Source: Candidatus Guanabacterium sedimentis (GTDB lineage Bacteria; Acidobacteriota; B3-B38; Guanabaribacteriales; B3-B38). Taken from it: 42,893 nt of DNA. Each line of letters starts with the position of its first letter. Position 1 is the first letter of the stretch. Positions 1,137 to 14,405 of this stretch are shown here, piece after piece. A program made the position numbers and the translations under genes. The notes under the pieces are model-generated. The model was given only the letters and a program-made list of their open reading frames with translations. It was not told the DNA's origin and did no database searches. The DNA lies in the NCBI GenBank assembly GCA_902505605.1, contig CABWKN010000157.1:1-42893 (forward strand). The letters are read 5' to 3'.

Positions 1137-2384
1137 GTGGATAAAAGTGTCCTGGTTATCGGAGCCGGAGTAGCGGGAATTACAACATCCCTTGAGTTAG
1201 CCAACAGCGGAGTGCAGGTTGTCCTGGTGGAAAAAAGCCCAGGACTGGGTGGTGCAGTCGCTTCATATTGCTGCAAAGCCACCGACCAATGCAACAAGTG
1301 CTCTGTATGCGTAGCCAATCAAAAGATGGAAGAGCTGTGGAGCGCGCCCAACCTTTCACTTTTCACCAATTCCGTTATACAGAAGCTAGCTCGCAGTGAC
1401 GGCGGGTTCCATATCACAGTAACGCACAAGCCCTCCTATGTTGATGACGATAAATGTATTCGCTGTCAGCTGTGCACTGAGAAATGCCCCACTACGCCAA
1501 GCTCTATTTTCCTGCCTCCTCCTCACTCCTCATTGCAGAGCTATGTGATTGATACTGATAGGTGTCTGCATTTTCAAGGCAAAAAATGTAATCTTTGTCA
1601 GGAGGTATGCCCTGCGGGAGCAGTCGACCTCTCCCAAAAAGAAAGGGAGGAGAACTTCCAGGTGGGAGCCATTGTGGTAGCAACCGGCTTTTCACCCTTT
1701 GACCCCACCCGAAAGAAGAGATATGGCTACGGGGCTTATCCCGATGTAATCACCGCCCTTGAACTGGAAGAGCAGCTGCGAATAGAAGGGAAGCTCAGCC
1801 GACCCTCCGATGGCAACCAGCCCAAACAGATAGCTTTTATCCAATGCTTCGGCAGCCGGGACGCCCATGTGGGGAATAACTATTGTTCCAGAGTCTGCTG
1901 CACATACACCATGAGACTGGCCAACCTTCTCAAGTTCAAGCACCCCGATTCAAGCGTTACCATATTTTACATGGACATCCAGACTTTCGGAAAAGAATTT
2001 GAGCAGTTTTATCAGCAGTGCCGCCAGAAAATCACCTTTATCCGTGATATGCCCTCACTCATCCAGCAGGATGGGAACAACAAGCTCTTAATCACCTATC
2101 AGGACAGAAAAGAGGGGCAAGTGGTGCGGAGCAATTTCGACCTGGCTGTCCTCTCCGTGGGTCTTTGTCCGGGAGAGGATACCGCCAAGCTGGTTGAATT
2201 GCTGGGGCTGCAGACCAACGAGCACGGCTTCTTCAAATCATTGAGCCCTCTACAAACCAACGAAACAGAGGCAGAGGGAATATTCCTCGCCGGCACCTGT
2301 CAAGGACCCCGTGACATAAGCGAATCCATCGCCCATTCTATCGGAGCGGCGGAGAAAGCCCTCGCTTATCTGGGAGCTGAATAG
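1137..2384 (+). CDS. HdrA-like flavoprotein, short form with two ferredoxin clusters
   Basis: The 415-residue protein is related to HdrA, the FAD subunit of heterodisulfide-reductase-type complexes. A Rossmann FAD motif opens it (VLVIGAGVAG, residues 5-14). An unusual cysteine group follows (C45, C46, C52, C55, C58) where HdrA normally has PTxDCxxC. Then come a 4Fe-4S motif (C107, C110, C113, C117) and a second with a widened first gap (C143, C151, C154, C158). The HdrA-typical IQCFGSRD with NYCSRVCC lies at about 235-255. The GTG start is chosen because the FAD motif begins four codons later; the ribosome site is weak. The next gene starts immediately after its stop. Together the two genes match the halves of the large fusion at 6452, without the NfnB insert. 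An electron-transfer role is firm; partners are inferred. Confidence 0.85.
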   Translation: MDKSVLVIGAGVAGITTSLELANSGVQVVLVEKSPGLGGAVASYCCKATDQCNKCSVCVANQKMEELWSAPNLSLFTNSVIQKLARSDGGFHITVTHKPSYVDDDKCIRCQLCTEKCPTTPSSIFLPPPHSSLQSYVIDTDRCLHFQGKKCNLCQEVCPAGAVDLSQKEREENFQVGAIVVATGFSPFDPTRKKRYGYGAYPDVITALELEEQLRIEGKLSRPSDGNQPKQIAFIQCFGSRDAHVGNNYCSRVCCTYTMRLANLLKFKHPDSSVTIFYMDIQTFGKEFEQFYQQCRQKITFIRDMPSLIQQDGNNKLLITYQDRKEGQVVRSNFDLAVLSVGLCPGEDTAKLVELLGLQTNEHGFFKSLSPLQTNETEAEGIFLAGTCQGPRDISESIAHSIGAAEKALAYLGAE

Positions 2385-4064
2385 ATGACAGAGGGAAAAA
2401 GAATAGGGGTCTTCCTTTGCAACTGCGGGGGAAGTCTTGACGCTCATTTAGACCTCAAGAAACTGAAGCAATACTGCCAGGGACTACCTCAAGTAGTGTA
2501 TGTAGAGGAGCTCAGAACCTTTTGCCTCCCTGAGGACCCTCAGAAGATAGCCTCCGTCATCAAGAAGGAGAACCTTTCGGGCGTCGTATTAGCCGGGTGT
2601 CCCCAACGGAATTCCGAATCTATAGCTTCAGCTATAGCCCGAGAGTCTCACCTGAGCCAGCATTTAATCAGCTTTGCCAACATAAGGGAGCAGTGTGCAT
2701 GGGCCTATCCCCAGCGGGAAACAGCTACCTTGCAAGCCGAAAAAATGCTGGCATCGGCGGTAGCCCGAAACATCCGTCTTCATCCCCTGGAAGAGGAGGA
2801 GTTGTCCGCCGAGAAAAGCGTCCTTATCATAGGAGGAGGCATTGGTGGCATTCAGACCGCTCTGGAACTCTCCCGCATGGGATTTGGAGCCACCATACTG
2901 GAGAAGAAGCCCCACCTGGGAGGACTGATGAAGGGCACTGCCGCTCCCTTCGATTCGGTGATCCAACCTCTGGAGCTGATTTCCTCCCGCATAGAGACCG
3001 CCACCAAGGACCCCAGCATAGACATTCTTACCTCCAGCGAACTGGTAAAACTGGAGGGAGAGCCGGGCAGATACCAGGCTCATATAAAACAGAAAGGAAA
3101 GAAGAAAACCTTAACTGCGGGCGCTATTGTGGTGGCTACCGGCTATCTGGTCAGCTTTCCCCAGGAGCGGTATGGATTCCCTCTCTCGCAGCGGGTCATC
3201 ACCCAATCGCAGTTATCCGCCATACTGGCCGACGAGAAGAAAACCCAGGCTTTGCTGGGAGGCGCTAAAGGAAAAGAGAAAAATATCATCTTCATCCTCG
3301 GAATGGGTGGAGAAAGCACTCCTCTGACCACCGCCTTCACCCTCAAGGTATCATCGCTTATTAAAGAAAAGTATAATTGGAACGTCTTCATTATTTACAA
3401 CAATATCAAAGTTGCTGGCGAGGGGCTGGAGGCACTCTTCCGGCAGTGTCGGAGTCAGGGTATTATCCTGCTAAGATACGATGAACTCCGTCCCGGGTTC
3501 ACCATCAGCAAGGAGAAGATAGGCATCCGACTCGGCGGTCTGCTCACCTCTTTGGAAAAAGAGGAGGAGGAGGTAACCATCCCCGGTCACCTTATGGTGG
3601 TCGAGGAGCGGATAGAGCCCGAGTCCGACTTTGAGAACCTCGCCCCACTATTGGGGATAAATGTTGACCCTCAGGGTTTTCTCCAGAAGGACAATCCTCA
3701 TTTGTTTCCCATTGCCACCAATAAGGCGGGAGTTTTCGTGATGGGCTCTTGTCATCATCCCATGCTGCTCCCATTTATCATGGAAGAGGCGGCAGCAACA
3801 GCGCTCCATATTGCTGAGCAGCTCTCCGAGGGAAAAATCAGGGTCTTCAAAGAAAGGGCAATGGTAGATAAAGGTAAGTGCACCCTTTGCCTCACCTGTA
3901 TTCGTCTCTGCCCCCATAATGCCATCTCTTACGACCGGGCAGCGGTCATCTCGGAGGCTTTGTGCCAAGGCTGCGGAGTCTGTGCCAGCGAGTGTCCGGC
4001 AGAGGCAATAGAAATTAGAAATTATACCACCCATCAGCTTATGGCTGAGATAGGAGTGAGCTGA
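2385..4064 (+). CDS. hdrA: HdrA-like iron-sulfur flavoprotein with C-terminal 2x[4Fe-4S]
   Basis: The 559-residue protein has three regions. The N-terminal domain (about 1-130) carries RIGVFLCNCGG and AGCPQR, like the HdrA N-terminal iron-sulfur/HdrC-contact domain. Next is an FAD Rossmann domain starting at SVLIIGGGIGGIQ (about 145) with the LGGLM element. The C-terminal ferredoxin domain has two complete 4Fe-4S motifs (C499, C502, C505, C509 and C527, C530, C533, C537). In HdrA the FAD is the bifurcating flavin and the C-terminal clusters pass low-potential electrons to ferredoxin. The gene starts on the base after the upstream stop codon, so the two are almost surely co-translated. It corresponds to the second half of the 1475-residue fusion. 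A standard HdrA is longer, so this pair looks like an HdrA split in two. Confidence 0.88.
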   Translation: MTEGKRIGVFLCNCGGSLDAHLDLKKLKQYCQGLPQVVYVEELRTFCLPEDPQKIASVIKKENLSGVVLAGCPQRNSESIASAIARESHLSQHLISFANIREQCAWAYPQRETATLQAEKMLASAVARNIRLHPLEEEELSAEKSVLIIGGGIGGIQTALELSRMGFGATILEKKPHLGGLMKGTAAPFDSVIQPLELISSRIETATKDPSIDILTSSELVKLEGEPGRYQAHIKQKGKKKTLTAGAIVVATGYLVSFPQERYGFPLSQRVITQSQLSAILADEKKTQALLGGAKGKEKNIIFILGMGGESTPLTTAFTLKVSSLIKEKYNWNVFIIYNNIKVAGEGLEALFRQCRSQGIILLRYDELRPGFTISKEKIGIRLGGLLTSLEKEEEEVTIPGHLMVVEERIEPESDFENLAPLLGINVDPQGFLQKDNPHLFPIATNKAGVFVMGSCHHPMLLPFIMEEAAATALHIAEQLSEGKIRVFKERAMVDKGKCTLCLTCIRLCPHNAISYDRAAVISEALCQGCGVCASECPAEAIEIRNYTTHQLMAEIGVS

Positions 4065-4090
4065 AAGGCTTCTGAAAAGGGGGCTTTAAA

Positions 4091-5491
4091 TTGCCAAAAT
4101 ACGATGTCGCCATAATAGGAGGGGGACCCGGAGGTTATGTGGCTGCCATAAGAGGAGCTCAGCTGGGAGGGAGAATCTGCGTGATAGAGAAAGAGGAGCT
4201 GGGGGGAACCTGCCTCAACTGGGGCTGTATCCCCACCAAAGCGCTCATCGCCTCCACCTCAGTGCTCAGATACATCAAAGAGGCACAGCACTACGGAATA
4301 CACATCAAGGGTGATGTGGAAGCAGACTTTCCCGCCATAATGGAAAGAAAAAATAAGGTAGTAGCCACCAATGTACAGGGGGTAAAGGCCACATTTAAAA
4401 GTTACCATATTAACCTTATAAAGGGCAACGCCTCATTCCTCGCCCCCCACAGACTCAAGGTAACCCTCCCCGATGGTTCTACCGAAGAGATAGAAGCAGA
4501 AAAGGTGATCATCGCCACCGGCTCTGTCCCCGCTATTATTCCGGCTTTCCCCATTGACGGGAAGAAGATCATTTCCAGCGACGAAGCCGTCACCATGAAA
4601 GAGGTCCCCAAAAGCATCCTCATTATCGGCGCAGGGGCTATCGGCTGCGAGTTCGCCTTCATTCTCCACGAACTTGGCTGTCAGGTTACCATGGTAGAGA
4701 TGCTGGCTCATGCGGTACCTCTGGAGGACATTGACACCTCCAGGACCATGGACCGAGAGCTAAAGAAGCGCAAGATCAAGCTCTACTGTGGCATCAAGGT
4801 TCAGCATGTCAAGGAAGATGCTGATGGGATGATGTTAGCCACTCTGGAAAGTGGCGAGCAGATAAGAGCCGAAAAGGTGCTGGTCTCCATAGGGAGAGTC
4901 TTCAATGTAAAGGGACTCGACCTCGACAACGCCAAAGTAGCCCAGGGGAAGAGGGGTGAGATTCTGGTCAATGAACATATGGAGACTAATGTCCCCGGAG
5001 TCTACGCTGTAGGTGATGTAATTGGGGGAATCATGTTAGCCCATGTCGCCTCAAAAGAGGGGATAGTAGCCGTGGAAAACGCTCTTGGCAAGAATAAAAA
5101 GATGGACTACCGGGTAGTGCCGGCGACCATATTCACCAATCCCGAGATTGGCAGCGTCGGTCTGAAAGAGAGAGAAGCCAGAGAGCAGGGATACGAGATC
5201 CGCATAGGAATGTTCCCCTACCGGGCTCTGGGGAAATCACATGCCATGGGGGAGATCGTAGGGCAGGCGAAAATCATCGCCGACGCCAAAACCGACAAGA
5301 TTCTGGGAGTCCACATCGTGGGAGCGCATGCCACCGACCTCGTCCACGAGGGAGCGATAGCAATCCAGCACGGAATCACCGCTCAGCAGTTGGGCGATAC
5401 CATACACTCCCATCCTACTTTATCCGAAGTTCTTATGGAAGCCGCTCACGATGTCCACCAGATAGCTATAGATATGCCCAAAAAAACCTGA
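4091..5491 (+). CDS. lpd: Dihydrolipoamide dehydrogenase (E3 / L protein)
   Basis: The 466-residue flavoenzyme has the usual length. It oxidises protein-bound dihydrolipoamide with NAD+, as the L protein of glycine cleavage or E3 of 2-oxoacid dehydrogenases. Visible are the FAD motif DVAIIGGGPGGY (5-16), the redox-active disulfide in GGTCLNWGCIPTK (C41, C46), the NAD motif ILIIGAGAIGCEFA near 175, the FAD-binding AVGDV, and the C-terminal HSHPTLSE with catalytic His441 and Glu446. All catalytic residues are present. The start is TTG, with a purine-rich GGGGG upstream; no better start precedes the FAD motif. It lies 26 bases after an hdrA gene and 62 bases before the H-protein gene, inside the hdr operon. 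This suggests that NADH and lipoyl redox chemistry are tied to the Hdr complex (inference). Confidence 0.95.
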   Translation: MPKYDVAIIGGGPGGYVAAIRGAQLGGRICVIEKEELGGTCLNWGCIPTKALIASTSVLRYIKEAQHYGIHIKGDVEADFPAIMERKNKVVATNVQGVKATFKSYHINLIKGNASFLAPHRLKVTLPDGSTEEIEAEKVIIATGSVPAIIPAFPIDGKKIISSDEAVTMKEVPKSILIIGAGAIGCEFAFILHELGCQVTMVEMLAHAVPLEDIDTSRTMDRELKKRKIKLYCGIKVQHVKEDADGMMLATLESGEQIRAEKVLVSIGRVFNVKGLDLDNAKVAQGKRGEILVNEHMETNVPGVYAVGDVIGGIMLAHVASKEGIVAVENALGKNKKMDYRVVPATIFTNPEIGSVGLKEREAREQGYEIRIGMFPYRALGKSHAMGEIVGQAKIIADAKTDKILGVHIVGAHATDLVHEGAIAIQHGITAQQLGDTIHSHPTLSEVLMEAAHDVHQIAIDMPKKT

Positions 5492-5553
5492 AAAGGGGAA
5501 ATAATTAAATGGCTTTAGATATACTAAATTTAACATTAAAGGAGGCCCAATAA

Positions 5554-5928
5554 ATGGGAGACGAGAGCTACAAATTTCACAAAGAGCATCTATGGTTTAA
5601 GGTGGAAGGCGATACCGGGATTATTGGCATCACCGATTACGCCCAGGAACAACTGGGAGAGATTGTATATGTTGACCTGCCCGATGAAGGAGATGAGATT
5701 AAAAAAGACGAGTCCCTGGGTGAGGTCGAGTCCGCTAAAGCCCTCTCCGACCTTATCGCCCCGGTGAGCGGAGAGGTAATTGAGGTCAACAACAATGCCG
5801 TTGATGACCCTTCAATCATCAACAAAGACCCTATGGGTGAGGGATGGCTTCTCAAAGTTAAGCTGTCCGACCCATCGGAGCTGGATGACCTCCTTTCTGA
5901 AGAAGATTATAGCAAATTGGCAAAATAG
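5554..5928 (+). CDS. gcvH: Glycine cleavage system H protein (lipoyl carrier)
   Basis: The 124-residue protein is a complete H protein. The N-terminus YKFHKEHLWFKVEGDTGIIG is typical, and the lipoylation site is K62 in GEVESAKALSDL. The conserved INKDPMGEGWLLKV segment and acidic C-terminus are present. A strong ribosome site (AAAGGAGG) precedes the ATG. H protein shuttles aminomethyl and reducing equivalents between the glycine cleavage P, T and L proteins. GcvP and GcvT are not in this window; only the L partner (lpd) is, directly upstream. Lipoate-binding proteins are known next to sulfur-oxidising sHdr complexes, but those are a divergent class. This one looks like an ordinary GcvH by motif, so a folate/glycine role is more likely. 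Confidence 0.95.
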   Translation: MGDESYKFHKEHLWFKVEGDTGIIGITDYAQEQLGEIVYVDLPDEGDEIKKDESLGEVESAKALSDLIAPVSGEVIEVNNNAVDDPSIINKDPMGEGWLLKVKLSDPSELDDLLSEEDYSKLAK

Positions 5929-5982
5929 CCTGAGAGAAATCCATCTGCCTGGGGAAAGAGCAGTAGTGTGAGGTTGTAAGGC

Positions 5983-6429
5983 ATGGGAGACCAGGAGAGT
6001 CGCGGAAAGCAATCCGATGACTTTTGTCCGCGAATAGTAGCCTTCTGTTGTCAGCGTTCCGCCTACCGTGCAGCAGACTTAGCAGGTGAGATGCACCTTA
6101 GCTTCCCCGAAGGGCTTAACATCATCCAGGTTCCCTGCACAGGTCGGGTCGACATCGTCTACCTGCTTCGGTCACTTGAAGAGGGCGCCGACGGGGTGCT
6201 CATCCTTGCCTGCTTTGAGGACAATTGCAAATATATCTCAGGCAACATTCGAGCACGCAAACGGGTGGAGTACGCTCGAAAACTCCTTAAAGAACTCGGA
6301 CTGGAGGAGGAGAGAATAACCATTGGTAACCTCGCCTCCAACACACCCCATCGGTTTGTAGAGCTCACCCAGGCAATGACAGAAGAAATTAAAAAATTAG
6401 GACCAAGTCCCTTGCGGGCTAAGCCATAA
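5983..6429 (+). CDS. mvhD: MvhD/FlpD-type iron-sulfur electron-transfer subunit, copy 1
   Basis: The 148-residue protein belongs to the MvhD family (hydrogenase delta subunit), which holds a [2Fe-2S] cluster and passes electrons from a hydrogenase or dehydrogenase into HdrA. Family landmarks are AYRAADLAGEM, VPCTGRVDIVYLL and ACFEDNCKYISGN. The first motif reads FCCQRSAY: the second cysteine of the usual CxxC is serine here, while copy 2 at 10884 keeps CHYC. One cluster ligand may thus be lost or supplied by the neighbouring cysteine. It lies 22 bases upstream of the large HdrA fusion. No hydrogenase gene is nearby, so its donor is probably a flavoprotein of the operon (inference). Confidence 0.88.
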   Translation: MGDQESRGKQSDDFCPRIVAFCCQRSAYRAADLAGEMHLSFPEGLNIIQVPCTGRVDIVYLLRSLEEGADGVLILACFEDNCKYISGNIRARKRVEYARKLLKELGLEEERITIGNLASNTPHRFVELTQAMTEEIKKLGPSPLRAKP

Positions 6430-6451
6430 AGATTAAGGGCTTTTCTGAGAG

Positions 6452-9400
6452 ATGGGCAACGAACAGAAAAAAGTTGGCGCAGTGCTGGTAGTGGGAGGTG
6501 GAGTTGGAGGGATGCAAGCCGCCCTCGACCTGGCGGACTCCGGCTTCAAAGTCTACCTGGTGGAGAAAAAGAGCTACATCGGCGGGGTGATGGCTCAGCT
6601 CGACAAGACCTTTCCCACCAACGACTGCGCTATGTGCATAGTAGCCCCCAGGCTGGTGGAGACCGGAAGACACCTCAACATAGAGACCATCACCAATACT
6701 GAGATAGATAAGGTCGAAGGAAAACCGGGAGACTTTAAGGTCACCGTCCGGAAGAAAGCACGATACATTGACCTTGACATATGCACCGGCTGTGGAGAGT
6801 GCGCCGAAGTCTGTCCGGTGAAGGTGGGGAGTGAGTTCGACCTTGGAATGGTCGACCGTCGCGCCACCTATCGGGGCTACCCGCAGGCAGTCCCTAGCGC
6901 TTACCTCATTGAGAAGTCTGGCAGAGGACCATGCGCGCTCACCTGCCCCGCAGGGGTAAACGCTCACGGGTATGTAGCGCTTATAGCTGAGGGAAAATTC
7001 GCCGAAGCGCTGACCCTGGAGAGGAAACAAAACCCATTCGCGGGTATCTGCGGGCGGGTCTGTCACCACCCCTGCGAAATAGCCTGTCGCCGGGGCGAAT
7101 ACGACCAGCCCATTGCCATCTGCCATCTCAAGCGCTTCCTCGCAGATTGGGAGCTGCAGCACGGACCCCTCCCCCTCCCCAACATAGAAAAGCCCAAAAA
7201 GGAAAAAGTAGCCATTATCGGCTCCGGCCCGGCTGGTCTGTCAGCCGCCCACGACCTCGCCCTGATGGGATATAAGGTCACCATCTTTGAAGCGTTGCCA
7301 GTTGCTGGCGGAATGCTGCGCACAGGCATCCCCGCCTACAGACTGCCCCGCGATGTACTCGACTACGAAATAAAGAGGATTACCGACCTGGGGGTGGAGA
7401 TTAAGCTCAATGCCCCCATCGGCAAGGATTTAACCATTGATAATCTTAAGAAGAAAGGTTATAAAGCTATTTTCATCGCCATAGGTGCCCACAAGGGACT
7501 GAAGCTCCGCATCCCCGGGGAAGACGAGTATGAGGGCTTCATGGACTGCATCAGCTTCCTGCGTAAGGTTAACCTGGGCGAGAAGGTGAGTCCGGTAAAG
7601 AGGGTTATTATCATCGGCGGCGGGAACGCCGCCATAGACTCTGCCCGTGCATCTCTGAGAATAGGATGTGAGGAGGTCGTCATCGCCTATCGCCGCTCCC
7701 GTAAGGAGATGCCCGCCAATGAGACAGAGATTCAGGCTGCAGAGTTTGAAGGGGTGAAAATCCACTACCTGGCTGCTCCGGTGAGAATCATCGGTTCCAA
7801 TGGCAAGGTTACCGGCATGGAGTGCATCCGTATGAGACTGGGAGAGCCTGATGCCAGTGGTCGCCGAAGACCTATCCCCATAGAGGGGACCGAGTTCGTC
7901 ATAGAATCCGACCGCATCATCCCCGCCATCAGCCAGGAACCCGACATCTCCTTCCTTCCCGACGACCACAAATTTAACATTTCCCGCTGGAATTCCTTTG
8001 TGGTCAATGAGGTCAGCTACCAGACCAACATCCCAGGAATATTTTCCGCCGGGGATGCAGTGACCGGACCTAACACGGTCATTGATGCCATTGCTGCCGG
8101 TAAGGAGGTGGCTATCTCCATTGACCGGTATATTCAGGGAAAAGAGCTCCTGACTGATAGACCGGGAAAGAAGCCCTGCGAGGGAAGACCGGGCCAAAAG
8201 GCTGGACCATACACACCCCGGCAGCAGATGCCTACCCTATCTCGCCAAAAAAGAGAGGGAAACTTCAAGGAGGTAGAGCTCGGCTTTACCGAGGAGATGG
8301 CTGTTGAAGAAGCCAAGCGATGCCTCGATTGCGGCGTATGCTCCGAATGCATGGAGTGTGTAAAAGCCTGCGAGGCAAAAGCCATCGCCCACGAGATGCC
8401 TGATGAGCAGTTAGAGGAGCTGTCGGTCGGAGCTATCATACTGGCTCCCGGCTACCGGCTCTTCCCTGCTGAAGAAGCCCAGGAGTTCGGCTACGGTAGG
8501 TTCTCCAATGTGGTCAGCAGCCTGGAGTTTGAACGCATCCTCTCCGCCAGCGGTCCTTATATGGGGAAGGTGCTGCGACCCTCCGACCAGGAAAAGCCGA
8601 AAAAAATTGCTTTTATTCAATGTGTCGGCTCCCGCGATGTAGAGAGAAACTACTGTTCGTCTGTGTGCTGCATGTACGCTATTAAGGAGGCAGTGATTGC
8701 CCGGGAGCACGACTCTGACATTGATTGCCACATTTTCTATATCGACCTGCGAGCTTTCGGCAAAGGATTTGATGAGTATTACGAGAGAGCCAAAGAGAGC
8801 GGCATCCAATTCACTCGTTGCCGCCCATCCTCGGTGAAAGAGATACCCCACAGCAAAGACCTCGTTGTCCGATATCAGACCGAGGATGGAAGGTTTATCG
8901 ACGAGGAGTTCAATCTGGTGGTGCTCTCCTGCGGTCTCCAGCCGCCCGAGGGAGTCGAAAAGTTAGCCTCCACATTGGGGCTGAAACTCGACCAGCATAA
9001 GTTCTGCCAGACAGAGAAATTCACCCCCATTGAGACCTCCCAGCCCGGAATCTTCGTTTGTGGACCCTTCTCCGAACCCAAGGATATACCCGAAACCGTT
9101 ACCGAAGCCAGCGGCACCGCTGCTCTGGCTATGGGGATGTTAGCCCCCGCTCGAGGGGAACTCATCAAGGAGAAGGAATACCCCCCCGAAAAGGATGTAG
9201 CTGGACAGCCGCCGCGCATTGGGGTATTTATCTGTCACTGCGGCAAGAACATAGGCGGAGTCATTGAAGTGAGCAAGCTGGTCGAGTATGCTAGCCATCT
9301 CCCCGATGTGGTCTATGCCACCGAGATGATATACTCTTGCTCCCAAGATGCCCAGGAGATTATGAAACAGACCATTGAGGAGCACAAGCTGAATCGCGTG

Positions 9401-10879
9401 GTGGTCGCTTCCTGCACCCCCCGAACCCACGAGCCGCTTTTCCAGGAAACCATCCGTCAAGCGGGGCTGAATCCCTATTTGTTCTCCATGGCTAATATTC
9501 GCGACCAGTGCACTTGGGTTCACATGCACGAGGCTGACAGCGCCTTGGAAAAGAGCAAGGTGCTGGTCAATATGGCTATTGCCCGAGCGCGTTACATTCA
9601 GCCCCTCCACAAAGAAACCATCGGTTTAACCAAGGATGCTCTGGTCATAGGCGGTGGTGCAGCCGGAATGGTAGCCGCCCTCAATATGGCGGATGAAAGA
9701 TACAATGTCCATCTGGTAGAACGAGAAGAAGTGCTGGGGGGCAACCTGAGACACATCTATTTCACCCTTGAAGGGATGGACCCGCAAAAGTATTTGACAG
9801 AGCTTATAAATAAGGTCACCTCCAACCCGAAGATTACCGTCCACCTGGGTAGCTCTCTCACCGGGTTTTCGGGATTTATCGGCAACTTCCAGGCTACCTT
9901 AAGTGCCAATGGCGGACCGCCGAAAAATATAAACTGCGGAGTGGTGATAGTAGCCACCGGCGGCACTGTCTACCAGGGTGAGGAATATCTTTACGGCAAA
10001 GATGAGAGAGTCATTAACCAGCAGAAGCTGGAAGAAACCATCTATCACCATCCTGAGCGGATAAAGGAACTGGGGCAGGTGGTGATGATCCAATGTGTGG
10101 GCTCGCGGGAGCCCGACCACCCCTCCTGCAGCCGCATCTGCTGCGGAGAGGCGATAAAAAACGCACTGAAAATCAAAGAGATGAGCCCATCTACCAATGT
10201 ATTCATCCTCTATAGAGACATCAGAGCGTATGGCTTCCGGGAAAAATATTACCGGCAAGCAAGAGAGCAGGGGGTCTATTTTATCCGCTATGAGCCTGAG
10301 GAGAAGCCCGAGGTAACCAACGAGGGAATGCTCAAAGTCAGAGTTAAGGACTATATCTTCGGTGGGAAAATGGAGCTGAGACCCGACCTCCTGGTACTGA
10401 GCACGGGTATCCGAGCCCATCCCGACAGCGAGGAACTGGCTGCCATGCTTAAAGTATCCTTAACCCAGGAGAAATACTATCTGGAAGCTCATATGAAACT
10501 CCGACCGGTTGACTTCTCCGCTGACGGCATCTTTCTGGCGGGGCTGGCGCATTATCCGAAATATATTGACGAATCGATTGCCCAGGCTCGGGCGGCGGTA
10601 TCGCGGGCAAGCAGGGTCATCTGGCAGGATACCCTGCAGGTGGGAGGCGCTATCTCCCAGGTGGACGAGAACCTCTGTGCGGCCTGTCTCACCTGCATCA
10701 GGGTCTGCCCCTATGATGCACCCACCTTCCGTGATGGAGTAGCTTACATTGAGATAGCCAAATGTCAGGGATGTGGAATATGTGCCGATGCCTGCCCTGC
10801 CAAAGCCATACAGCTATTGCATTCCACCGACCAACAGATTATAGCTATGACCGACGCTTTGGCTGAGGCAGCTTCCTGA
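6452..10879 (+). CDS. hdrA: HdrA - NfnB/GltD - HdrA triple flavoprotein fusion
   Basis: This 1475-residue protein contains three flavin modules. Residues 1-150: HdrA FAD motif VLVVGGGVGG, FPTNDCAMC and a ferredoxin motif CTGCGECAEVCP (111-122). Residues about 160-640: an inserted glutamate-synthase small-subunit/NfnB-like NAD(P)H:flavin oxidoreductase, with N-terminal cysteines (C161, C165, C200, C204, C208, C212), FAD motif VAIIGSGPAGLSAA (253), NAD(P)-type motif VIIIGGGNAAIDSA (385), SAGDAVTGP (532) and cysteines at 624-640. About 655-900: the rest of HdrA with IQCVGSRD and NYCSSVCC. About 922-1475: a second HdrA with PRIGVFICHCG, FAD motif ALVIGGGAAG (1063) and C-terminal 2x[4Fe-4S] (about 1405-1455). 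The frame is unbroken over 4.4 kb. By family, HdrA bifurcates electrons; the insert suggests NAD(P)H as donor or acceptor (inference). Confidence 0.92.
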   Translation: MGNEQKKVGAVLVVGGGVGGMQAALDLADSGFKVYLVEKKSYIGGVMAQLDKTFPTNDCAMCIVAPRLVETGRHLNIETITNTEIDKVEGKPGDFKVTVRKKARYIDLDICTGCGECAEVCPVKVGSEFDLGMVDRRATYRGYPQAVPSAYLIEKSGRGPCALTCPAGVNAHGYVALIAEGKFAEALTLERKQNPFAGICGRVCHHPCEIACRRGEYDQPIAICHLKRFLADWELQHGPLPLPNIEKPKKEKVAIIGSGPAGLSAAHDLALMGYKVTIFEALPVAGGMLRTGIPAYRLPRDVLDYEIKRITDLGVEIKLNAPIGKDLTIDNLKKKGYKAIFIAIGAHKGLKLRIPGEDEYEGFMDCISFLRKVNLGEKVSPVKRVIIIGGGNAAIDSARASLRIGCEEVVIAYRRSRKEMPANETEIQAAEFEGVKIHYLAAPVRIIGSNGKVTGMECIRMRLGEPDASGRRRPIPIEGTEFVIESDRIIPAISQEPDISFLPDDHKFNISRWNSFVVNEVSYQTNIPGIFSAGDAVTGPNTVIDAIAAGKEVAISIDRYIQGKELLTDRPGKKPCEGRPGQKAGPYTPRQQMPTLSRQKREGNFKEVELGFTEEMAVEEAKRCLDCGVCSECMECVKACEAKAIAHEMPDEQLEELSVGAIILAPGYRLFPAEEAQEFGYGRFSNVVSSLEFERILSASGPYMGKVLRPSDQEKPKKIAFIQCVGSRDVERNYCSSVCCMYAIKEAVIAREHDSDIDCHIFYIDLRAFGKGFDEYYERAKESGIQFTRCRPSSVKEIPHSKDLVVRYQTEDGRFIDEEFNLVVLSCGLQPPEGVEKLASTLGLKLDQHKFCQTEKFTPIETSQPGIFVCGPFSEPKDIPETVTEASGTAALAMGMLAPARGELIKEKEYPPEKDVAGQPPRIGVFICHCGKNIGGVIEVSKLVEYASHLPDVVYATEMIYSCSQDAQEIMKQTIEEHKLNRVVVASCTPRTHEPLFQETIRQAGLNPYLFSMANIRDQCTWVHMHEADSALEKSKVLVNMAIARARYIQPLHKETIGLTKDALVIGGGAAGMVAALNMADERYNVHLVEREEVLGGNLRHIYFTLEGMDPQKYLTELINKVTSNPKITVHLGSSLTGFSGFIGNFQATLSANGGPPKNINCGVVIVATGGTVYQGEEYLYGKDERVINQQKLEETIYHHPERIKELGQVVMIQCVGSREPDHPSCSRICCGEAIKNALKIKEMSPSTNVFILYRDIRAYGFREKYYRQAREQGVYFIRYEPEEKPEVTNEGMLKVRVKDYIFGGKMELRPDLLVLSTGIRAHPDSEELAAMLKVSLTQEKYYLEAHMKLRPVDFSADGIFLAGLAHYPKYIDESIAQARAAVSRASRVIWQDTLQVGGAISQVDENLCAACLTCIRVCPYDAPTFRDGVAYIEIAKCQGCGICADACPAKAIQLLHSTDQQIIAMTDALAEAAS

Positions 10880-10883
10880 AGAA

Positions 10884-11327
10884 ATGGGGGAATCAAGATT
10901 GAAGGAGTTTGAACCAGAAATTCTGGCTTTTGCCTGTCACTATTGTGCCTATGCAGCGGCTGACCTGGCAGGTTCTATGAGGCTGCAATACCCCACCAAT
11001 GTCAAAATAATAAAGATTCCCTGTTCGGGAAAAATAGACATTATCTATATTTTAAAAGCATTAGAAGCGGGAGCCGATGGCATACTGGTAGCCGGGTGAC
11101 TGGAAGGAACCTGCCATTACCTGGAAGGTAATCTGAGAGCAAAGCAGAGAGTAGAGCACGCCAAAGAGCTCCTTGAAGAGATTGGCATGGAAGGGGAGCG
11201 GGTGGAGATGGTCTTCATCTCGGCATCGGAGGGGAAGAGATGGGCGGAGATAATAAGCCAGATGAGGGAGAAACTGAAAAAGCTGGGACCCAATCCCCTT
11301 AAACAGAACCGAGGGAGTGGAAAATAA
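10884..11327 (+). CDS. mvhD: MvhD-type subunit, copy 2, probable selenoprotein (in-frame TGA)
   Basis: The frame opens at ATG 10884, meets TGA at 11097-11099, and continues in frame without a break to TAA at 11325-11327, giving 147 residues against 148 for copy 1. Conserved family motifs lie on both sides: ACHYCAYAAADLAG and IPCSGKID before the TGA, TCHYLEGNLRAKQRVEHAK after it. Residue 72, encoded by TGA, aligns with the conserved cysteine of copy 1 (ACFEDNCKY versus G-U-LEGTCHY). Sec-containing MvhD/VhuD proteins are known. A hairpin suited to a bacterial SECIS begins 11 bases after the TGA. Its stop overlaps metV (TAATG). Both CxxC cysteines are kept, unlike copy 1. It probably joins the HdrA fusion to MetVF or HdrBC. 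A nonsense mutation is the less likely alternative. Confidence 0.85.
11111..11147 (+). promoter_or_regulatory. Candidate bacterial SECIS element
   Basis: Downstream of the TGA at 11097-11099, ATTACC (11116-11121) pairs perfectly with GGTAAT (11127-11132) around the five-base loop TGGAA. CTGC (11111-11114) can pair with GCAG (11144-11147) as an outer stem. The apical loop with its G residues starts 22 bases after the TGA, close to the spacing in known bacterial selenoprotein mRNAs. The structure lies within the coding sequence, as bacterial SECIS elements do. Confidence 0.65.
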
Positions 11328-11995
11328 TGATAACCGCTGTAAGGAAGCCACTCAACGAAATAATAGAAATGGTAGCCCCCTATGAGAAGATATTGGTAAC
11401 TGGCTGTGGCACCTGCGTTACCATAGATTACTCTGGCGGGGCTAAAGAGGCAGCTATCCTTGCCTCGCAGCTGCGTATTGCGCGGAGGCTGGGAGGGAAA
11501 AAGCTGGAAACCCTGGAGCAGACCGTGGAGCGGCAGTGCGAATGGGAGTTTGTAAAGGAGTTTACCGACCATGCGGCTGAATGCCAGGCGATAATAAGCA
11601 TGGCCTGTGGAGCGGGAATACAAACAGTAGCCGCTGCCTTCCCTGATAAGCCGGTCTTCCCTGGGGTCAACACCCGATTTGTCGGCATGCCCCAGAAACA
11701 GGGCGTCTGGGAGGAGAGATGCATTTGCTGTGGCAACTGCGTCCTCCATCTTACCGGTGGGCTTTGCCCCTTTGCCCGCTGCGCCAAAACACTTCTCAAC
11801 GGCCCCTGCGAGGGCTCGCAGGACGGCAAATGCGAGGTAAACCGAGAGCTTGACTGCGTCTGGCAGCAGATATACGACATCTTAAAAGAGAAAGGGAGGT
11901 TAGCTGACCTGCAGAAGATATTCCCTCTGCGCGACTGGTCCACCGGTGAAGACGGAGGCTACCGGATAACCGTCAGGGAGGATATGATGCTATGA
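11327..11995 (+). CDS. metV: MetV, zinc/iron-sulfur partner of methylene-THF reductase
   Basis: The 222-residue protein matches MetV, the accessory subunit of the acetogen-type methylenetetrahydrofolate reductase, which links MetF to an electron donor. The N-terminus has KILVTGCGTCVTIDYSGG (C27, C30). The middle has MACGAGIQTVA, and the C-terminal half is cysteine-rich (CICCGNC, LCPFARCAK, GPCEG, KCEVN), consistent with a zinc site plus an iron-sulfur cluster. The start overlaps the stop of the upstream mvhD by one base, and the end overlaps metF by four (ATGA). Such coupling implies a fixed stoichiometry. MetVF physically joined to HdrABC-MvhD is described in Moorella thermoacetica; the same gene set is present here. 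Confidence 0.88.
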   Translation: MITAVRKPLNEIIEMVAPYEKILVTGCGTCVTIDYSGGAKEAAILASQLRIARRLGGKKLETLEQTVERQCEWEFVKEFTDHAAECQAIISMACGAGIQTVAAAFPDKPVFPGVNTRFVGMPQKQGVWEERCICCGNCVLHLTGGLCPFARCAKTLLNGPCEGSQDGKCEVNRELDCVWQQIYDILKEKGRLADLQKIFPLRDWSTGEDGGYRITVREDMML

Positions 11996-12876
11996 GCGCC
12001 AACAGCGGTCTGAAAAAGCTATTAGAAAAGGGAGAGTTCGTAATAATTGCTGGCATCGGTATTCCCCGCGGGGCTGATTTTAAACCACTGGAAGAGCGTT
12101 ACAAGCTATTAGAAAAAAAGGTCAATGCCTTTTATATACCTGACAATCCGGGAGCAAATGTCTACCTGCTGGGTCTGGCAGCGGCGGTGCACTTACAGAA
12201 ACTGGGAGGAGAAACACTGCTGGAGCTGAACTGCCGGGATAGAAATCGCATCGCCATCCAGAGCTCTATTCTGGGAACGGCTGCTCTGGGCATACCCAAC
12301 CTTCTCTTCTCCACCGGCGACCATCAAACCCTGGGCAATTTCAGAGGGGCTAAAAGGGTTTACGATGTGGACCTGACTCAAGCTATCCAGATAGCCCGGG
12401 GAATGAGGGATGAGAAAAAGTTCTCCAATGGTGAAGAAGTAGAGCAACCGCCCTCTGTCTTCATCGGCGCCGAGGTAAATCCCTTTGCCGACCCTTTAGA
12501 ATTCAGACCAGCCCTTATGGCGAAAAAGGTCGAGGCAGGTGCGGACTTTGTTCAGACCCGAGCGGTCTTCGACCTGGAGCGCTTCGGGAAATGGATAAAG
12601 CTGGTGCGGCAGCAAAAACCACTTCAGAAAATTCCCATCCTGGCAGGGATAATGCCGCTGGTCTCGGTGGAGCACGCTAAAGCCCTGCAGGAAGCACCGG
12701 GGATGATAGTGCCCGACTCGCTCGTCCAGCGGCTGGAATCGAGCAGCAAACCCGAGGAGGAGGGCATCAAGGTAGCAAAGGAGATTATCAACCAGGTGAA
12801 GAAGATGGAAGGAGTGAGAGGGATTGTGCTCCACGCCGGTGGGATGGAAAGCCTGATACCGCAGCTCATCACATAA
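11992..12876 (+). CDS. metF: Methylenetetrahydrofolate reductase
   Basis: The 294-residue flavoprotein is an MTHFR of normal bacterial length and reduces 5,10-methylene-THF to 5-methyl-THF in the methyl branch of the Wood-Ljungdahl pathway or in methionine synthesis. Family marks include LELNCRDRNRIAIQSSILG, the NLLFSTGDHQ strand, GAEVNPFADP, the AGADFVQTRAVFDLE segment near 180, and PILAGIMPLVS. It lacks an NADH-binding fusion, so its electrons must come from partner proteins. The adjoining metV, mvhD and hdr genes are the obvious source. It overlaps metV by four bases and is followed 51 bases later by hdrC. Confidence 0.93.
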   Translation: MSANSGLKKLLEKGEFVIIAGIGIPRGADFKPLEERYKLLEKKVNAFYIPDNPGANVYLLGLAAAVHLQKLGGETLLELNCRDRNRIAIQSSILGTAALGIPNLLFSTGDHQTLGNFRGAKRVYDVDLTQAIQIARGMRDEKKFSNGEEVEQPPSVFIGAEVNPFADPLEFRPALMAKKVEAGADFVQTRAVFDLERFGKWIKLVRQQKPLQKIPILAGIMPLVSVEHAKALQEAPGMIVPDSLVQRLESSSKPEEEGIKVAKEIINQVKKMEGVRGIVLHAGGMESLIPQLIT

Positions 12877-12927
12877 GGGGGCTTTATAGTATGGCTTGAT
12901 GAACTTGTTTTTTTAACCGGGGGCTTT

Positions 12928-13506
12928 ATGAAAGCTGAGACAATGGAAAAGGTATTAACACAGGAAACCCTGAAATCGGATTTTACAGATAAGATTGCCC
13001 AGGAGAGCGACCAGAATGTGTACCTCTGCTATCAATGCCGCAAGTGTGCCGCCGGTTGCCCGGTCACCTATGAGACTGACTATACCCCCTTCCAGATAAT
13101 ACAGGGGGTGATATACGGTCAGCGTGAGCTGGTGCTCAACAGCAAGATGATATGGTTGTGTACCACATGTGAGACCTGCACCACCCGCTGCCCCCAGGAA
13201 ATAGATATCGCCCGGGTAATGGATGCCGCCCGAATAATCGCCCAGCGAGAGGGGATAAAGGCTAAATACCCGGAGGTGCCCGCCTTTTTCCAGACCTCTT
13301 TACAAAATATCAGTTGGTTCGGAAGGCTGTACGAGGTGGGGCTGATAATGATGCTCAAGCTGCGGACGAAGGATTTTACTAAAGATGTAGGCTTGGGTAT
13401 AAGAATGTTCTTAAATAGAAAGCTCAAGCTCACCCCCAAGCCTACCGCATTTCGAGAAGTAAGGCGAATTTTCAAAAAAATCAAGGAGATAGAGGAGGCC
13501 AGTTGA
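12928..13506 (+). CDS. hdrC: HdrC-like ferredoxin subunit
   Basis: The 192-residue protein has two classical 4Fe-4S motifs, C34-C37-C40-C44 and C78-C81-C84-C88, in the HdrC arrangement (YLCYQCRKCAAGCPV and WLCTTCETCTTRCPQ), followed by the IDIARVMDAARIIA helix. HdrC relays electrons from HdrA to HdrB. The C-terminal region from about 110 is longer than minimal HdrC and basic, without clear membrane helices. ATG at 12928 follows GGGGG; a second in-frame ATG is at 12943. It overlaps hdrB by four bases. The position at the end of the operon, after metVF, suggests HdrBC is the high-potential arm of the same complex. Confidence 0.92.
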   Translation: MKAETMEKVLTQETLKSDFTDKIAQESDQNVYLCYQCRKCAAGCPVTYETDYTPFQIIQGVIYGQRELVLNSKMIWLCTTCETCTTRCPQEIDIARVMDAARIIAQREGIKAKYPEVPAFFQTSLQNISWFGRLYEVGLIMMLKLRTKDFTKDVGLGIRMFLNRKLKLTPKPTAFREVRRIFKKIKEIEEAS

Positions 13507-14405
13507 TGAGATATGCCTACTACCCGGGATGCTCTCTCCACTCCACTGCCTTTGAATATGACCTCTCCATGAGAGCTGTGCTGGAGAAGCTGGGGATAGA
13601 GTATGAGGAGCTGCGGGGATGGATCTGCTGCGGCACATCCCCGGCTCACTGCAGCTCGAAGCTTCTGGGGGTAACCCTTCCTATCAAGAACCTGGCTATC
13701 GCCGAGGAGGACGGCTTCCGGCAAATGATAGTCCCCTGCGCTTCGTGTTTCTCACGGTTTAAGATCGCCCTGCATGAGACAGAGGAGAATCCCGAGCTGA
13801 AGGAGAAGGTGGAGCAGGTTCTCAACTACGCCTATCAGGGGAGTGTTGAAGTTCGCCATCCTCTGGATATCTTTTACAACGAAGTGGGATTGGAACGGAT
13901 AAGGGAATCGGTCAGTGAAGACCTCTCCCGGATGAAGGTAGTGTGCTACTATGGCTGCCTCTTGACCCGTCCCCCCAAAGCAGTTAACTTTGACCAATGT
14001 GAGTATCCTATGACCATGGATAATTTGCTTAGAGGCTGCGGGATAGAGGTGCTCGACTGGTCTTACAAGACCGATTGCTGCGGTGCAGGACAGGCTTTGG
14101 CACTGACCAATATCGTAGTGAAGCTAAGCCGCGATATACTGGTCAACGCCAAGCAGGTGGGAGCCGAGGCGGTGGCAGTGGCGTGCCCGCTGTGTCACAG
14201 CAACCTGGATGCCCGACAAAAGGAGATAGAGCAAACTTATAAACTGAGCCTCAATTTGCCCATATTCTATTTCAGCCAGCTCATCGCTCTGGCGATGGGA
14301 GTGGACAAGAATAAAATAGGATTGCAAGGGCATCTGGTAAGCCCCTTCCCCCTGCTTAAAAAAATAAAATCCACTTCTTCCTCTGCCAGGCCGTCTCGGG
14401 GATAA
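13503..14405 (+). CDS. hdrB: HdrB-like subunit with two CCG domains
   Basis: The 300-residue protein carries both CCG cysteine sets that bind noncubane [4Fe-4S] clusters in HdrB. The first is C9, C41-C42, C78 and C81; the second is C151, C191-C192, C227 and C230. All ligands are present, so the active site looks intact. In methanogens HdrB reduces the CoM-S-S-CoB heterodisulfide. Bacteria lack that substrate, and the natural acceptor of bacterial HdrB homologues is mostly unknown; lipoyl disulfide or another thiol is conceivable given gcvH and lpd in the operon (inference). The C-terminal tail after about 270 is serine- and lysine-rich and not conserved in obvious ways. It is the last gene of the operon. 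Confidence 0.93.
   Translation: MMRYAYYPGCSLHSTAFEYDLSMRAVLEKLGIEYEELRGWICCGTSPAHCSSKLLGVTLPIKNLAIAEEDGFRQMIVPCASCFSRFKIALHETEENPELKEKVEQVLNYAYQGSVEVRHPLDIFYNEVGLERIRESVSEDLSRMKVVCYYGCLLTRPPKAVNFDQCEYPMTMDNLLRGCGIEVLDWSYKTDCCGAGQALALTNIVVKLSRDILVNAKQVGAEAVAVACPLCHSNLDARQKEIEQTYKLSLNLPIFYFSQLIALAMGVDKNKIGLQGHLVSPFPLLKKIKSTSSSARPSRG

Follow-up and report, generated by a model that had tools for sequence, protein, structure and literature searches.

An lpd-gcvH pair inside an Hdr operon of Candidatus Guanabacterium sedimentis as a possible dedicated lipoyl redox couple

In Candidatus Guanabacterium sedimentis, genes for a dihydrolipoamide dehydrogenase (lpd) and a lipoyl carrier protein (gcvH) lie inside an operon that encodes an Hdr complex, which raises the question of what a lipoyl carrier does there. 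We addressed this question in contig CABWKN010000157.1 of assembly GCA_902505605.1 (42,893 nucleotides; hereafter the window) and in three genomes of the genus, all of them draft MAGs: the window's own genome (G000; 80.8% complete) and two genus mates (G001 and G002; 79% and 93% complete). Our surveys of G002 cover 2.19 Mb, about 95% of that genome. In the window, lpd (4091..5491, + strand; 466 amino acids) and gcvH (5554..5928, +; 124 amino acids) are flanked by hdrA2, which ends at 4064, and mvhD1, which starts at 5983, all on the + strand, and the gaps between hdrA2 and lpd, lpd and gcvH, and gcvH and mvhD1 are 26, 62, and 54 bases, respectively. The pair is part of a single co-directional run from 1137 to 14405 (+) with the order hdrA1-hdrA2-lpd-gcvH-mvhD1-hdrA3-mvhD2-metV-metF-hdrC-hdrB.

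This run opens with two HdrA-like flavoproteins, the short hdrA1 (1137..2384, +; NF040770, 402 bits; aligned with 5odc_A) and hdrA2 (2385..4064, +; NF040770, 296 bits; aligned with 8rvu_a). Downstream of the pair are mvhD1 (5983..6429, +), an MvhD/FlpD [2Fe-2S] subunit (PF02662, 146 bits; VhuD model, 133 bits); hdrA3 (6452..10879, +), an HdrA of 1475 amino acids (NF040770, 998 bits, and PRK12771, 568 bits); a second MvhD gene, mvhD2 (10884..11327, +); the Fe-S protein gene metV (11327..11995, +; PF12225, 119 bits); a metF-like gene with the methylene-tetrahydrofolate (THF) reductase (MTHFR) fold (11992..12876, +; PF02219, 81 bits); hdrC (12928..13506, +; TIGR03290, 71 bits); and hdrB (13503..14405, +; TIGR03288, 188 bits, with PF02754 in two stretches). 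The gene set of type IV methylene-THF reductases (HdrA, HdrB, HdrC, MvhD, MetV, and MetF) is complete in this one cluster. An Rfam scan of the operon region found no glycine riboswitch or other family at gathering level, only one sub-threshold antisense match, and promoter and terminator scans gave counts similar to those of a shuffled control. The initial annotation had described the pair as embedded in the Hdr operon, and this arrangement is the same in all three species of the genus: the order lpd-gcvH-mvhD-hdrA3-mvhD2-metV-metF is common to both available genus mates, and the complete operon from hdrA1 to hdrB is visible in G002. Across the operon, dN/dS ranges from 0.03 to 0.19, indicating purifying selection on its genes. 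The values for lpd and gcvH between G000 and G002 are 0.13 and 0.14, so neither gene is a chance open reading frame.

Both proteins of the pair have the residues expected for their chemistry. Lpd, which has a TTG start codon, carries the redox motif CLNWGC (C41/C46), the active site H441-P-T-L-S-E446 with its catalytic H441 and E446, and an NAD-type second Rossmann motif (acidic residue in VTMVE); its TIGR01350 score of 537 bits is above the cut-off of 409. GcvH has the H-protein fold, with a lipoyl lysine at K62 (ESAK62A, within ESAKALSD), no cysteines, and scores of 147 bits with TIGR00527 (cut-off, 116 bits) and 150 bits with PF01597. These motifs and scores bear out the initial annotation of both proteins as intact. 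The same annotation called the H protein conventional, which holds for Lys62 and the family score and fails at one functional position: Leu13 stands where H proteins have Glu-14, and the residue is leucine in all three species of the genus. In the E. coli H protein, Glu-12 and Glu-14 hold the aminomethyl nitrogen (PMC7733448). Among 127 GcvH proteins that we gathered with a lipoyl lysine, Glu-14 is kept in every one of the 89 whose analyzed stretch includes gcvP or gcvT and is lost in 11 of the 38 whose stretch includes neither (Fisher p 5e-7, a value that is only indicative given shared ancestry, with 3 of the 11 coming from this genus, and unequal locus lengths). Besides those three, the 11 include gcvH-lpd pairs of Nitrospirota and two orphan gcvH genes of actinobacteria. 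In a GcvH tree of 132 rows the genus forms a single clade, around whose place the tree is poorly resolved; the GcvH on genus-mate contig JAOUOQ010000075.1 is 94% identical to that of the window.

We find no other components of a glycine cleavage system. Neither gcvP nor gcvT is in the window, and a search for gcvP gave no match in G000, G001, or G002. The same search finds gcvP in its positive control, a genome of the sister family (G003) with an ordinary gcvT-gcvH-gcvPA-gcvPB run and no MetV. From completeness values of 81, 79, and 93%, the chance of missing a gcvP that is present in all three genomes is about 0.003. For gcvT, there is no match in G000 (PF01571) or in the 2.19 Mb of G002 (two GcvT queries), and the earlier observation that GcvP and GcvT are absent extends to these genomes. 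That observation had been qualified by the prospect of a second lpd-gcvH set with gcvPT elsewhere, the pair here being an incidental insertion absent from relatives. We find no such set, and the pair is present in all three genomes. There is one lpd in G000 and one in G002, and one gcvH with a lipoyl lysine in each of the three genomes. The only candidate for a second gcvH in G000 was rejected, as this GcvH-domain protein has phenylalanine at the lipoyl-lysine position. It is a protein of 381 amino acids with a Cys-rich N-terminus fused to the GcvH domain (locus L002, 877-2022, on contig C33 of G000) and also occurs in G001 and G002.

By its gene content, the genus mate G002 appears equipped to lipoylate this carrier. 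It encodes the lipoyl synthase LipA (TIGR00510, 381 bits; cut-off, 310 bits) and a transferase of the LplA/LipM kind (PF21948, 125 bits), which we read as LipM from its motifs rather than from a curated model. In the portion of G002 read, we found no E2 subunit with the AceF query, which recovers E2s from other genomes, and a motif survey of G002 found no lipoyl acceptor other than GcvH, the remaining similar matches carrying the biotin motif EAMK. Because LipA and the transferase are present and G002 shows no other acceptor, the gene content suggests that the cell keeps lipoate synthesis for this one GcvH.

In HdrB, both CCG motifs are intact and all ten cluster-binding cysteines are kept in an alignment with solved HdrB chains. 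HdrA3 contains an inserted GltD NAD(P)H/FAD domain and two thioredoxin reductase (TrxR)-like domains. An E/K pair around the flavin has been used as a bifurcation signature (PMC9430772), and reading the HdrA3 sequence against the positions of 5odc_A, we find this signature in both TrxR-like domains; the flavins of HdrA3 are therefore predicted to be of the bifurcation type. The signature is partial in the two smaller proteins: HdrA1 has the E and an R in place of the K, and HdrA2 has an S in place of the E and retains the K. In mvhD2, an in-frame TGA at 11097 replaces a cysteine of its homologues. The TGA is conserved in G001, G002, and a genome of a further family (G241), and dN/dS across it is 0.10. 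It is probably a selenocysteine codon, which would make MvhD2 a selenoprotein. G002 encodes SelA; the portion of that genome read yielded neither SelB nor tRNA-Sec. MvhD1 has a serine (FCCQRSAY) where MvhD2 (HYCAY) and the G241 protein (EHCAY) have a cysteine, and one cluster ligand may be missing from it. G002 also carries further HdrA/HdrB/HdrC clusters on contigs C77, C95, C39, and C67 (loci L201, L222, L163, and L253), one of them with a GltD-type HdrA series, and the genus therefore relies heavily on Hdr-type complexes.

Based on these data, we propose, with somewhat better than even confidence, that GcvH together with Lpd constitutes a lipoyl dithiol/disulfide redox couple dedicated to the surrounding Hdr complex and is not a remnant of glycine cleavage. 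The complex itself would derive from a Moorella-type MTHFR, having apparently abandoned folate chemistry while retaining a lipoyl carrier of its own. In the proposed mechanism, the LipM/LplA-like transferase and LipA would place lipoate on Lys62 of GcvH, as their genes suggest, and Lpd would pass electrons between NAD(H) and lipoyl-GcvH, an exchange that is established chemistry for the Lpd family. The lipoyl arm would then exchange a two-electron dithiol/disulfide unit with the Hdr complex, in either direction, with the two non-cubane clusters of HdrB as the most plausible docking site. In methanogens, these clusters split the CoM-S-S-CoB heterodisulfide. HdrA3, with its two bifurcation-type flavins and NAD(P)H domain, may together with the MvhD subunits couple the exchange to ferredoxin, NAD(P)H, or another partner. 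As the initial annotation suggested, the locus is best read as encoding a carrier that exchanges dithiol/disulfide electrons with Lpd and possibly with HdrB. A more specific version, which we put forward only tentatively and consider on balance doubtful, is that lipoyl-GcvH is the physiological disulfide substrate of the bacterial HdrB, and that the MTHFR complex has been converted to a lipoyl-protein:NAD(P)H/ferredoxin bifurcating oxidoreductase whose MetF module no longer handles folate.

The distribution of the pair bears on whether it works with the Hdr complex at all. Lpd and GcvH have all the chemistry needed for an NADH-dependent thiol system, and lipoyl/Lpd-dependent antioxidant systems exist in other bacteria. 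The two proteins could thus form a stand-alone thiol system that is co-transcribed with Hdr and serves another target, for example in peroxide or disulfide reduction. Consistent with this possibility, most Hdr-type MTHFR operons of the phylum do without the pair. In a search of 396 genomes of the phylum, Hdr-MvhD-MetVF clusters, often with several MetV copies, were found in about ten genomes of one other genus, and none of these has a gcvH on the MetV contig. The pair is therefore not a general subunit of such complexes; its presence in the Hdr operon is conserved in this genus and was not seen elsewhere among the 396 genomes sampled. In G241, hdrA3-mvhD2(TGA)-metV-metF-hdrC occur in the same order, on a contig that ends before the lpd-gcvH position. 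A stand-alone role would also fit two Nitrospirota gcvH-lpd pairs, one between glyS and eno (L113, 9950-11766) and one at L103 (2112-3433), that have no Hdr genes and no gcvP or gcvT in the stretch; both of these GcvH proteins have threonine at the Glu-14 position. Against it, the place of the pair between hdrA2 and mvhD1 is kept across the genus, G002 already has a general thiol system in the form of thioredoxin reductase, and no peroxidase gene adjoins lpd-gcvH in the window. We consider a stand-alone thiol system unlikely, though a serious alternative.

When we screened 80 contig loci for a gcvH next to Hdr genes, only this genus and one actinobacterial neighbor of HdrA-MvhGA-HdrCB were recovered. 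The actinobacterial case is probably incidental: its gcvH stands ahead of gatB, an order shared by a related genome that has no Hdr. Locus L076 (390-8828; Actinomycetota) encodes an HdrA-MvhD fusion, an MvhG/MvhA-type hydrogenase, HdrB, and a hydrogenase maturation protease, followed by an orphan gcvH, which is without Glu-14.

If the pair does serve the complex, the complex might still be a working Hdr-type (type IV) methylene-THF reductase, with lpd and gcvH in whatever role they have in the Wood-Ljungdahl clusters of acetogens. The window operon shares its core genes with the type IV enzymes of Moorella and Sporomusa (HdrABC-MvhD-MetVF), and HdrA3 matches Moorella HdrA, as described in PMC9430772, in its GltD-interrupted layout with two TrxR domains and in its E/K signatures. 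Genes for lpd and gcvH adjoin metVF in Thermoanaerobacter kivui, Acetobacterium woodii, and Clostridium ljungdahlii, as the pair does here, and FolD and SHMT are encoded in G002. The window departs from the type IV enzymes in its additional genes (hdrA1-hdrA2, lpd, gcvH, and a second mvhD) and in the residues of the MetVF module itself. In the MetF-like protein, the equivalent of E. coli Glu28 is glycine, the SECGPP or AELGPP of the comparators reading AGIGIP in the window and G002, and G001 has the same Glu-to-Gly change. The folate-binding Gln183 is arginine, QTQ reading QTR or QIR in the window and G002. Both residues are kept in 14 of 14 MetF comparators (ten from Hdr-type clusters, two others of the phylum, the genus's own MetF fusion, and E. 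coli). In E. coli MetF, activity falls to about 0.01% or less with Glu28Gln, and the Km rises more than 250-fold with Gln183Ala (PMC11094777). MetV has an aspartate in place of one cysteine that is conserved in the other MetV proteins compared. Within the operon, dN/dS is lowest for MetV (0.03) and highest for MetF (0.19), from which we conclude that metVF is maintained as a module and that MetF is the least constrained.

Methionine synthesis in G002 is covered by another MetF, a fusion with a homocysteine methyltransferase domain, in which the Glu and Gln are intact. Formyl-THF synthetase (FTHFS; Fhs) and acetyl-CoA synthase (ACS; CdhC), both found in G241, are absent from G000, G001, and G002. 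Because these two enzymes are absent, the cluster does not amount to a functioning methylene-THF reductase cluster of the acetogen kind, and because gcvP is likewise absent from the three genomes, neither glycine cleavage nor the Wood-Ljungdahl pathway explains lpd-gcvH. From its substituted residues, the MetF-like protein is probably not a methylene-THF reductase, and MetVF probably either survives as a relic with a structural or electron-transfer role or has a different substrate. The acetogen orphans also differ from the pair studied here, which sits inside an Hdr operon in a genus with no Wood-Ljungdahl key genes and no gcvP found, and whose GcvH is the sole lipoyl acceptor found. Taking both sides together, a working methylene-THF reductase is improbable.

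A sulfur-oxidizing system of the sHdr-LbpA type, in which a lipoyl carrier works with Hdr-like proteins and lpd is linked in archaeal clusters (PMC6067878), resembles the window in combining Hdr proteins, a lipoyl carrier, and Lpd, but is very improbable: LbpA proteins, some archaeal ones excepted, have two strictly conserved cysteines that are absent from GcvH proteins (PMC6067878), and the GcvH here has none, in agreement with the earlier view that it is not of the LbpA type; the gene set of MvhD, MetVF, and GltD-type HdrA is a different one; and no genes for the sLpl or LipS1/S2 lipoylation of that system lie beside the operon, LipA being present instead (G002). The genus shares with glycine cleavage systems the H- and L-protein families, the lipoyl lysine, and the Lpd active site, yet a true glycine cleavage system with gcvP and gcvT merely missing from the assemblies can be largely set aside: in its favor, G000 is only 81% complete and SHMT is present, but gcvP is missing from three genomes, one of them 93% complete, gcvT from the two checked, Glu-14 from GcvH, and a glycine riboswitch from the operon region at gathering level.

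The idea that links lipoyl proteins to Hdr or MetVF is not new, having been raised for other organisms (PMC8760232, PMC9430772, PMC9723716). In T. kivui and A. woodii, orphan lpd and gcvH have been reported next to metVF, and in Moorella thermoacetica a gcvH in the cluster; their role was called unclear (PMC4320612, PMC5039349). A proposal that GcvH donates electrons to MetVF was considered unlikely (PMC8760232). In membranes of Sporomusa ovata, neither dihydrolipoate nor lipoate affected the activity of the Hdr-type MTHFR, a protein-bound dithiol being left open (PMC9430772), and no coupling was seen between Lpd with lipoamide and the MetVF of C. ljungdahlii, which has no Hdr (PMC8515935). 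Both of these negative assays used free lipoate or lipoamide, not H protein. Another parallel is the Ehe cluster of Culexarchaeia (HdrB, HdrA2B2C2, hydrogenase, and GcvH), in which GcvH adjoins Hdr as it does in the window and for which a lipoyl disulfide was proposed as the partner of HdrB (PMC9723716). That cluster differs in being archaeal and in having a group 4 hydrogenase, CdhA, and SdhA, with no Lpd or MetVF named. Given that orphan lpd/gcvH and the GcvH-Hdr pairing were already published as unexplained or hypothesized, what is new here is a Moorella-type Hdr complex that apparently has a private lipoyl carrier and has given up folate chemistry.

These findings touch on two questions, the substrate of HdrB in bacteria without CoM and CoB and the role of lpd and gcvH in acetogen clusters. 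Loss of Glu-14 offers an inexpensive way to flag, from sequence, H proteins that have dropped out of glycine cleavage. In this genus the problem seems reduced to its essentials: glycine cleavage and the Wood-Ljungdahl key genes are missing, and the single Lpd and the one lipoyl acceptor found are both encoded in an Hdr operon. Earlier papers tried small molecules only, and lipoyl-H protein against HdrABC is now a testable substrate question.
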